NCBI GenBank assembly: GCA_938082375.1
Contig: CALKCJ010000017.1
Location: 1 to 64,000 of the forward strand
DNA length: 64,000 nt
Direction: 5' to 3'
DNA from: an uncultured Thermomicrobiaceae bacterium
GTDB taxonomy: Bacteria; Chloroflexota; Chloroflexia; Thermomicrobiales; Thermomicrobiaceae
Shown here: one piece after another, positions 40,786 through 43,718 of the stretch
Layout of the letters: every line of letters begins with the position of its first letter
How positions within the stretch are numbered: position 1 is the stretch's first letter
Made by a program: the position numbers and the translations under genes
The notes under the pieces: model-generated
The model's input: the letters and a program-made list of their open reading frames with translations, nothing else
Told to the model about the DNA's origin: nothing
Database searches by the model: none

Positions 40786-41058
40786 ATGCACCGGACGCAA
40801 ATCCTGCCGGAGCCGGAGCAAAATCGAGCACTGGTCAAACTCGCCCGGCGAGAGGGGCGCAGCCTGTCCGAGCTACTGAGAGAGCTGGTTCGCGAGCACC
40901 TGGCGCAGCGGCATCAGGCTGCCGACGTCATCCGGGCACGGCACATGGCCGCCCTGGAGCGAATTCGCTGGCACCGACAGGCATTGCTCGAGCGCCGCTG
41001 CGGTGTGCCGCCCGCGAGCGATGTGGCGGCACTGCTCGTAGTGGTACGGGGGATGTAA
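40786..41058 (+). CDS. ribbon-helix-helix antitoxin-like protein (VapB-like)
   Basis: This 90-residue protein has an Arc/CopG-type ribbon-helix-helix N-terminus: HRTQILPEPEQNRALVKLARREGRSLSELLRELV. A helical tail follows with ALERIRWHRQALLERR. Full VapB proteins usually carry a toxin-binding C-terminus; here it stops at VAALLVVVRGM and looks shortened. ATG 40786 follows GAGG by 6 bases; an ATG at 40741 with AAGGA is an alternative. A PIN-toxin remnant follows, so this is probably an orphan antitoxin. Confidence 0.6.
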   Translation: MHRTQILPEPEQNRALVKLARREGRSLSELLRELVREHLAQRHQAADVIRARHMAALERIRWHRQALLERRCGVPPASDVAALLVVVRGM

Positions 41059-41079
41059 ACATCTTGACCGGCTCGACGG

Positions 41080-41166
41080 ACGATTCTCGTTGACACCAGC
41101 CTGGCGATCTGGGTCGTAGTGTCGGTCGTCTCTCCGGTTGACCCGCTCAATTTGCTTCTGAGCTAG
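41080..41166 (+). pseudogene. PIN-domain (VapC) toxin remnant
   Basis: Reading 41080-41166 gives TILVDTSLAIW, which matches the start of PIN nuclease toxins with their first catalytic Asp in LVDTS. The frame then diverges and stops at TAG 41164-41166. There is no start codon: an in-frame TGA lies just upstream, and the usual M position is ACG. Only about a dozen recognisable residues remain, right after the antitoxin-like gene. Confidence 0.55.
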
Positions 41167-41190
41167 CACCCATGGCCCAGCGGGAGCCCC

Positions 41191-41219
41191 TCGCCAGCGG
41201 AGGCGAGATCGGCTATACT
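41191..41219 (+). promoter_or_regulatory. putative promoter of the serA leader transcript
   Basis: TCGCCA (41191-41196, four of six -35 bases), a 17-base spacer and TATACT (41214-41219) form a likely promoter. A start near 41226 gives a leader of about 240 bases before serA, which holds the leader ORF. Confidence 0.5.
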
Positions 41220-41296
41220 CCGACTCGATAGTTGCCGATCGTCAAGAGTGAGCGCGGAGACTGGCGCGCCGCTTGGACGACCGCAAGGAGGATCGA

Positions 41297-41503
41297 ATGC
41301 AGCGCCTGTGCTCTTTCGCTTCGCTGCCACAGAGCATGCCGCTCAGCGGATGGTGCTCGGTGTCCTCCCACTCCGGTCGCGGCGCCAGTAGTCCCTCCGG
41401 ATCCAGTCACCATCCGGGGTTCCCGGACAGGTCGGTGAAATTGGTACTGGACTGGAGGGAACGACGTGCAGAAGCCAATTATCCGCCTCGCGCTCGATCT
41501 TGA
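41297..41503 (+). CDS. serine-rich leader peptide (candidate serA attenuator)
   Basis: This is a 68-residue ORF. AAGGAGGA sits 5-12 bases before its ATG, one of the strongest ribosome sites in the window. Serine occupies positions 6, 9, 13, 17, 21, 23, 24, 26, 31, 32, 34, 36 and 37, that is 13 of the first 37 residues, drawn from five of the six serine codons. Cys at 5 and 20, Gly and Trp also appear. After residue 37 the bias ends. The stop lies 38 bases inside serA, in a different frame. It is not similar to any protein I know. The composition, position and overlap support a leader peptide that senses charged serine tRNA; function is inferred. Confidence 0.6.
   Translation: MQRLCSFASLPQSMPLSGWCSVSSHSGRGASSPSGSSHHPGFPDRSVKLVLDWRERRAEANYPPRARS
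41393..41459 (+). promoter_or_regulatory. stem sequestering the serA Shine-Dalgarno (candidate attenuator)
   Basis: CCCTCC (41393-41398) can pair with GGAGGG (41454-41459), the serA ribosome site. TCCAGT (41402-41407) can pair with ACTGGA (41446-41451) and ACC (41409-41411) with GGT (41443-41445). That gives 15 pairs with two small bulges. A perfect hairpin TCCGGG-GTT-CCCGGA (41413-41427) sits in the loop. The 5' strand covers leader codons Pro33 to His39, including Ser34, Ser36 and Ser37. A ribosome stalled on serine codons would keep the stem open and free the serA start. Confidence 0.55.
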
Positions 41504-43718
41504 CGGTGTGCTGACAGAACACCCCGCCCCACTCGCGCAGGCGGCGAACCGCGCGCTGGGGATGCAGCTTCCAGATCACGCCTTCGTCGACTCCGCTGGG
41601 TGCAACGTACCGGTCGCCGTGCGTGAGTGGGTCTACGGGCCTGGCGGGCCGGCGAGCCTGCTTGAGCCTGCCCCGCGAGCTCAGCAGCTCCTCCAGCGCC
41701 TGCTGGAGATCCTCGAGCCGGACAACGTGTGGATCGTCACCGCGCGGCCAGCACGCTCTCGCCCGGTGGCTGAGGAGTGGCTCCGGCGCCACCGGTTCCC
41801 AGCCTGCCGCATTGAGTTCGCCGACGACAAGGTCGCCGTCGCTCGCTCGCTCGGCATCACGCATGCGATCGAGGACAGCCAGCGCCACGCCGTGAGCTAC
41901 GCCCGTGCCGGTATCGCCTGTTTCCTGCTCAGCGACGCGCCCCCGCCGGCCGACGAGCCGCCGTTCATCATGCGGGTACCGGATCTGGAGCACGCTGTCG
42001 AGCGGATCCTGGAACTGGCCGGCGCGGCGGTCGTGGCGCCGGCCCGCCTGTACGAGCGCCAGCGCGAGGCCAGCGACAGCGAGCCACGGCGCAAACGCAT
42101 CGTCGTCAGCGACCTGATCGACGAGAAGGCACGCCAGCGACTGGCAGCCGAAGCGGAGGTCATCGACGTGGATGGGCGAGACCGCACGGCGCTCCTGGCG
42201 GCTCTCCAGGACGCCGATGCCTTAATCGTGCGGAGCGAGACCCAGGTCACGCGGGAGGTGCTGGCAGCGGCACCAAAACTCCGGGTTATCGCTCGTGCGG
42301 GCACCGGCGTCGACAATATCGATCTCGACGCGGCGACCGAGGCAGGTATCCTGGTGCTCAACGCGCCCGGGGCGAACGCCGTCTCGGCGGGCGAGCACAC
42401 CATCGCGCTGATACTGGCCATCGCACGCTGCCTGCCGGAAGCCAACGCGAGCACTCATGCCGGCCGGTGGGAGCGCAAGCGCTTCAAGCCGTTCGACCTC
42501 AAGGGCAAGACTGTCGGTATCGTCGGGCTGGGGCGTGTCGGCTCGGTCGTGGCACAGCGCCTGCGTGCCTTCGAGGTCCGCTTGCTGGGCTACGACCCGT
42601 ACGTCACGCGCGAGCGCTTCCTCCAGCTCGGCGTCGAGCCTGTCGACTACGAGACGCTGTTGGAAAACGTCGATATCGTCACCTTCCACGTGCCGGCGAC
42701 TGCGGAGACGTACCACATGCTCGATGCCGAGGCGATCGCCCGGCTGAAGCCCGGCGCGATCGTGATCAACTGTGCCCGCGGCGATGTCGTCGACACAGCG
42801 GCGCTGGCAGAGGCCCTCAGGTGCGGGCACCTTGCTGCCGCCGGTCTCGACGTGTTTCCGCAGGAGCCTGCCTACACGAGCCCGCTCTTCGGGCTGCCCA
42901 ACGTCGTCCTGACGCCGCATATCGGTGGCTCCAGCAAGGAAGCGCTGGAGGCGGTGGGGGAGATCATCAGCACCACCACCCTGGCCGCCCTGCGCGGCGA
43001 GATCGTGCCCAACGCGGTCAACCTGCCGGCCGCGTCACTCCAGGCGCCCGAGCTGCTGCGCCTGACCCAGGTGGCCGACGCCGCCGGGCATCTGATCGCC
43101 GTGCTCCAGCCCAACCGGCCGAGCACCTTCGCCGTCACGGTACGAGGGCAGGTGGCGGCTGACATCGCGGAGCACGTGACGGCGGCTGCGCTCAGCGCGG
43201 CACTGCGCCGCTGGTCGGATCGCCGGGTAACGCCGGTGAACGCCAGGCTGGTGGCTGCCGAGCTCAACCTGCTTGTCAGCGTGCGCTTCGATTCGAGCGC
43301 GGCGGTGATCCCAGAATTCAGCTTCGAGGTCGACGGCGAATCGCCGCACCACGTCACGGTGCGCTGGGATCGTAAGGACGCTGGCATCATGGAGGTCGAC
43401 CGCTTCTCACTGGAGCGACCTCTCGCCGGGCATATGCTGATCACGCACCACTACGATCGCCCAGGCATCGTGGGCCGGATCGGGACAATCCTCGGCCGCT
43501 ACGAGGTGAATATCGCCGGGATGCAGGTCGGGCGGCACCAGCGGGGCGGGGAGGCGATCATGGTGCTGAACGTGGACGATCCGATTCCGGAAGAGGCTCT
43601 GGCCGAGATCTTGACCATCCCCTTTATCTCGACGGCCTACGTGGTCTCCCTGCCTGAGCCAGCGCCGCAGATGACCGGGCGCCCGGTCACGACAGCGTTC
43701 AGCCGTCCTGCGGACTGA
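41466..43718 (+). CDS. serA: HAD-domain/D-3-phosphoglycerate dehydrogenase fusion
   Basis: This is a 750-residue fusion. Residues 1-190 form a HAD phosphatase-like domain with LDLDGVLT (nucleophile), VTARPARS, the Lys of ADDKVAVA and AIEDSQRHA. Residues about 207-750 are a full SerA: ARAGTGVDNIDLDAA, NAD motif VGIVGLGRVGSV, catalytic Arg in NCARGDVVD, Glu in FPQEP and His in LTPHIGGSS. The allosteric ASB region and a C-terminal ACT domain (HHYDRPGIVGRIGTIL) follow. SerA makes 3-phosphohydroxypyruvate in serine synthesis. The HAD could act on phosphoserine or a nucleotide; this is untested. GTG start with GGAGGG. Confidence 0.88.
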   Translation: MQKPIIRLALDLDGVLTEHPAPLAQAANRALGMQLPDHAFVDSAGCNVPVAVREWVYGPGGPASLLEPAPRAQQLLQRLLEILEPDNVWIVTARPARSRPVAEEWLRRHRFPACRIEFADDKVAVARSLGITHAIEDSQRHAVSYARAGIACFLLSDAPPPADEPPFIMRVPDLEHAVERILELAGAAVVAPARLYERQREASDSEPRRKRIVVSDLIDEKARQRLAAEAEVIDVDGRDRTALLAALQDADALIVRSETQVTREVLAAAPKLRVIARAGTGVDNIDLDAATEAGILVLNAPGANAVSAGEHTIALILAIARCLPEANASTHAGRWERKRFKPFDLKGKTVGIVGLGRVGSVVAQRLRAFEVRLLGYDPYVTRERFLQLGVEPVDYETLLENVDIVTFHVPATAETYHMLDAEAIARLKPGAIVINCARGDVVDTAALAEALRCGHLAAAGLDVFPQEPAYTSPLFGLPNVVLTPHIGGSSKEALEAVGEIISTTTLAALRGEIVPNAVNLPAASLQAPELLRLTQVADAAGHLIAVLQPNRPSTFAVTVRGQVAADIAEHVTAAALSAALRRWSDRRVTPVNARLVAAELNLLVSVRFDSSAAVIPEFSFEVDGESPHHVTVRWDRKDAGIMEVDRFSLERPLAGHMLITHHYDRPGIVGRIGTILGRYEVNIAGMQVGRHQRGGEAIMVLNVDDPIPEEALAEILTIPFISTAYVVSLPEPAPQMTGRPVTTAFSRPAD

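Follow-up and report, generated by a model that had tools for sequence, protein, structure and literature searches.

A conserved serine-rich leader reading frame overlapping serA in a family of Chloroflexota: a probable serine-responsive translational attenuator

A serine-rich reading frame that started upstream of serA and ended inside it was found in the window (the whole stretch of 64,000 nucleotides analyzed here, from an uncultured Thermomicrobiaceae bacterium), and, on strong comparative evidence, a leader of the same kind was kept in all 19 family genomes that were compared. We consider it almost certain that this leader is functional as a cis element, and it probably acts as a serine-responsive translational attenuator of serA. 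The first-pass annotation of the window had listed the reading frame as a candidate serine attenuator. That candidacy was strengthened by the conserved serine-rich leader, and a mechanism was added to it: Ser codons of the leader are predicted to sequester the Shine-Dalgarno sequence (SD) of serA and, as no terminator was found, attenuation would most likely be translational.

The product of serA was recognized as phosphoglycerate dehydrogenase by the model TIGR01327 (530 bits, cut-off 454, residues 211–729), and its start codon was GTG at 41466. Since the leader ended at 41503, the two reading frames overlapped by 38 bases. The first-pass annotation was thus right to place the leader directly before a serine-biosynthesis gene and to end it inside that gene in another frame. 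The strong initiation that it had assigned to the 68-codon frame was confirmed by the SD listed in Table 1, with a spacer to the ATG of four bases instead of the five that it had given. Serine occupied 13 of the first 37 codons (codons 6, 9, 13, 17, 21, 23, 24, 26, 31, 32, 34, 36, and 37), and the bias ended there, as had been reported; one further Ser codon preceded the serA start.

The N-terminal extension of the serA product (window 41466–42065) opened with a HAD-like motif, LDLDGVLTEHP. It was matched by no Pfam or NCBIfam model and, by sequence, by no solved structure. The fusion was common to families f1–f3 of the order; in family f4 and elsewhere in the class, the serA matches began near query residue 210. 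The extension may be a candidate phosphatase fused to phosphoglycerate dehydrogenase.

Table 1. Positions of the leader, the predicted pairing strands and serA in the window
Feature	Position	Strand	Description and basis
Sigma-70-like promoter, TCGCCA - 17 nt - TATACT	41191..41219	+	−10 at 41214–41219; sequence scan
Leader ORF Shine-Dalgarno, AAGGAGGA	41285..41292	+	Sequence; 4-base spacer to ATG
Serine-rich leader ORF	41297..41503	+	68 codons plus TGA; out of frame with serA, ends inside serA; kept in 19/19 family members
Ser core, putative control codons, SVSSHSGRGASSPSGSS	41357..41407	+	Codons 21–37; within-genus Ser retention and stall scan
Anti-SD strand, TCCCTCCGGATCCAGT	41391..41410	+	Leader codons 32–38; predicted to fold onto the serA SD region
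serA ribosome-binding region, GTACTGGACTGGAGGGA	41444..41460	+	SD core GGAGGG at 41454–41459; predicted sequestered by Ser codons; covariation between genera
serA, putative regulated gene	41466..43718	+	~200-residue N-terminal extension, then phosphoglycerate dehydrogenase with ACT domain

The promoter was the sole promoter-like match in 40900–41700, where 0.1 was expected, and each of the 19 family members had a −10 element (TATACT or TATCAT) 67–102 nt 5′ of the leader ATG. The stretch containing the leader SD (−192 to −169 relative to serA) showed 100% identity within the window's genus. For the leader's own SD (41285–41292), the predicted partner was the first Ser run (codons 22–25, 41363–41371). 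This pairing was predicted in the window's genus and in L044, where Ser codons would conceal both SDs. Being limited to that genus and one other, it was rejected as a feature of the whole family.

In dinucleotide shuffles of the window leader (n = 5000), codons 2–49 held a mean of 6.8 Ser (sd 2.2) vs. 14 in the actual sequence; nine shuffles reached 14, and six of these nine had an open frame. By shuffling alone, the Ser content was uncommon. Far stronger evidence against chance comes from the comparison of sequences across the family, in which the leader was conserved in 19 of 19 genomes.

For this comparison, serA was matched in 61 relatives, and the sequences preceding its orthologues were compared; the family sample comprised the 19 genomes, from six genera, that hold the 5′ end of serA. 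Every one of them carried a serine-rich leader ORF, its Ser kept while the codons were exchanged, so that conservation in relatives, which the first-pass annotation had put forward as a check on its reading, was found. The distance from the leader start to the serA start took ten values between 148 and 202 bases, and whole leaders spanned about 59 to 79 codons. Despite these ten lengths, the leader frame relative to serA was identical in all 19 genomes. It contained no stop in any of them, and stops were present in both other frames in each. The leader ended 32 or 38 bases inside serA in every family genome; because this end point is set by TGA triplets in the conserved LDLDG codons, the constraint lies in the openness of the frame and in the choice of that frame. 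Before the serA start, 10–18 Ser codons were counted in the leader frame vs. 1–10 in the other two. The family presents what is looked for in amino-acid leader peptides in general, a serine-rich ORF that has a strong SD and lies just before serA.

Beyond the family, 82 serA loci drawn from elsewhere in its order, class and phylum were scanned, and none had a serine-rich ORF in the same placement; these loci include some genomes twice, and one is a second copy of a family member. The remaining hits outside the family resembled chance reading frames of neighboring genes or had no SD. In L056 (family f2), a Ser cluster (MVICLSSLSKRCSIEWWTGFSSSL) was seen in an ORF of 24 codons that preceded the serA match by about 200 to 126 bases and had no clear SD; this ORF may be a chance frame or a remnant. 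Six family genomes were also searched for similar leaders at glyA and at 30 loci of the aminotransferase-V family, which holds serC, and nothing convincing was found.

Most genera wrote Ser mainly as TCC, AGT, and TCG, whereas TCA predominated in the genus of L019, L020, and L032. In the latter genus, changes in codons 1–46 numbered 16, 14, and 47 at codon positions 1, 2, and 3 (47 of 77 at the third), 11 synonymous Ser-codon changes were observed, and the third-position bias stopped after codon 46. In pairwise comparisons within the window's genus, eight or nine core serines were kept and none or one was changed. Codons 1–21 drifted there, and the peptide outside the Ser core showed no synonymous bias, as expected if the codons alone matter. 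The synonymous-biased substitution that the first-pass annotation had named as a further check was therefore recovered in the one genus and absent from the window's own. The retention of Ser through codon exchange indicated that serine identity is conserved, not the DNA letters or the remaining peptide. Synonymous recoding with the codon usage of serA gave a weak result in most genomes, falling below 5% in only 4 of 19. From the SD, the conservation of the frame and the third-position bias, we infer that the leader is translated.

The end of the Ser core lies in a predicted hairpin with the ribosome-binding region of serA. The SD core was predicted to be paired at no fewer than four of its five bases (at least 4/5) in 17 of the 19 genomes. 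Ahead of the SD, the letters of the pairs varied between genera and the pairing was retained; at position −1, for example, the pairs were C-G in seven genomes, T-A in five, T-G in four, and A-T in one. The window hairpin folded better than all 200 of 200 shuffles (z −3.5). The SD burial of 9.9 kcal/mol in the window genome was high, and it was matched or exceeded by 3 of 27 control genes in the window. In the models, the serA SD is paired with the region of the leader where stalling would occur, which is the arrangement sought in a translational attenuator.

When leaders were swapped between genera, the intramolecular energy for opening the SD averaged 10.6 kcal/mol with the cognate leader vs. 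7.0 kcal/mol with swapped leaders, and the true assignment of leader to SD ranked 2nd of 720 permutations. An earlier version, based on the energies of intermolecular duplexes, gave no significant result (rank 122 of 720). It was replaced by the intramolecular version because the best duplexes were long and gapped, which made the test unspecific. As two versions were run and the first was not significant, the evidence from swapping is moderate rather than strong. The overlap of Ser codons and anti-SD strand is also partly automatic, since TCC is complementary to GGA. Only 69 of the 251 Ser codons touched the SD helix, so the serines are not explained by pairing alone.

A stall model was run on 13 genomes, in which a ribosome footprint was placed at each codon and the SD was counted as open when its burial fell below half of the burial energy. 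In the window, the SD opened with the ribosome at about codons 30–39. Over the 13 genomes, 54% of the opening codons and 22% of the remaining ones were Ser (odds ratio 4.3); the associated P value of 6e-10 is overstated because the genomes are related. The modelled stalls opened the SD in most genomes; burial did not fall below half in 3 of the 13 (L016, L019, and L021), and L007 and L012 opened the SD at a single codon only.

Here, the following mechanism was proposed. The promoter would give an mRNA that starts with the serine-rich leader ORF, and the end of the Ser core (codons 32–38) would pair with the serA ribosome-binding site and conceal it. When charged tRNA-Ser is plentiful, ribosomes would cross the Ser core fast and the hairpin would close behind them; they would continue through the serA start and terminate 38 bases inside the gene, and little serA would be translated. 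When charged tRNA-Ser is scarce, ribosomes would dwell on about codons 30–39 with their footprint over the anti-SD strand, the serA SD would be exposed, allowing production of phosphoglycerate dehydrogenase, which catalyzes the first step of serine synthesis. Both the serine dependence of the stall and the direction of the response are what we infer from this arrangement. More tentatively, the leader might be a one-piece serine switch, a possibility that we hold to be somewhat doubtful: the same Ser codons would be both sensor and lock, and the out-of-frame run through the serA start would let serine-fed ribosomes physically block initiation, while starved ones stop short. To our knowledge, such double control, by an SD lock and by ribosomes that block initiation, has no counterpart among other amino-acid leaders.

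Other explanations were weighed against the translational attenuator. Most amino-acid leader peptides described in proteobacteria act by ribosome-mediated transcription attenuation, and mycobacterial cys leaders without obvious terminators have been proposed to act via Rho (PMC1262725); stalling in the Ser core might likewise prevent intrinsic or Rho-dependent termination before serA. We regard this as unlikely. A terminator-like hairpin with a T run was sought in 40900–41700 and none was found, so that the leader is not a classical transcription attenuator; moreover, the leader passes the serA start, so that neither a terminator nor Rho would find an untranslated gap ahead of the gene, and the conserved hairpin ends at the SD. 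It is also quite improbable that the serines are incidental, with selection acting on structure, or on an anti-SD strand of UCC runs that holds serA translation low, and with no sensing of serine. The complementarity of UCC codons to GGA and the conserved burial of the SD would suit this explanation, but 182 of the 251 Ser codons were outside the SD helix, serine was written in unrelated codons (AGT, TCA, and TCG) and retained through synonymous change, and frame and openness were conserved in all 19 genomes.

Two further explanations were weighed. The out-of-frame overlap, its constant frame and the termination 32–38 bases past the serA start would agree with translational coupling only, in which serA initiation is raised or adjusted in proportion to translation of the leader, with no sensing of serine. 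This is very unlikely, as the serine bias and its location at the codons where a stall would open the SD are left unexplained, and it would be unusual for reinitiation to occur 38 bases upstream of a stop. Hardly credible at all is a functional small protein, a Ser/Gly-rich peptide whose overlap with serA is fortuitous: the open frame with a strong SD and the third-position bias over codons 1–46 in one genus speak for it, but in the window's genus the sequence beyond the Ser core drifts nearly without constraint, leader lengths range from about 59 to 79 codons, neither Pfam nor NCBIfam had a matching model, and Ser content and RNA pairing were conserved rather than a fold.

Leader peptides are known to control trp, his, leu, ilv, thr, phe, and cys genes. 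The first-pass annotation knew of no described serine leader for serA in Chloroflexota, and no serine leader was found in the literature searched, in which subscription journals are thinly covered, so that an earlier description is possible. A serine T-box riboswitch was rejected for want of a covariance-model match; Rfam gave no match at the gathering score in the window and none that was relevant at E ≤ 5 in 41150–41520. The serA leader shares end-product control codons in a leader ORF with the classical trp, his, leu, and ilv transcription attenuators; unlike them, it has no terminator or antiterminator and overlaps the structural gene. In translational attenuators of the ermC/ermB type, a ribosome stalled on the leader ORF likewise frees the sequestered SD of the next gene. 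However, the stall there is caused by a drug and the nascent peptide, whereas in the serA leader the signal would be uncharged tRNA-Ser on Ser codons.

The nearest parallel in design is the LEU element of actinobacterial leuA, in which a run of leucine codons pairs with the leuA SD (PMC1262725, a 2005 comparative study). In both, a codon run for the amino acid of the pathway lies in an upstream ORF and pairs with the SD of the biosynthetic gene, and a terminator is part of neither. They differ in amino acid, gene and phylum (leucine and leuA in Actinobacteria, serine and serA in Chloroflexota), and the serA leader runs through the start codon of the gene that it would regulate. The LEU element has a conserved pseudoknot (PMC1262725), and the likeness concerns the pairing of codons with the SD. 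Identity with the LEU element was rejected because the leader is built on Ser codons and precedes serA. The cysteine leader ORFs of mycobacteria (Canestrari et al., 2020, as cited in PMC13236596) are also short, rich in codons for the downstream product and without an obvious terminator (PMC1262725); they differ in using Cys instead of Ser, in being leaderless ORFs and in belonging to another phylum and other operons.

If the serine-responsive attenuator is real, serine would join the amino acids sensed by leader peptides, and leader-peptide control would be placed in a deep, thermophilic branch of Chloroflexota. It would also be a second case, after the actinobacterial LEU element, of end-product codons that double as the anti-SD strand. 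Complementarity to the SD, shared by Leu (CUC) and Ser (UCC) codons, suggests a reason why switches of this kind may evolve more than once for these amino acids, and where more of them may be sought.
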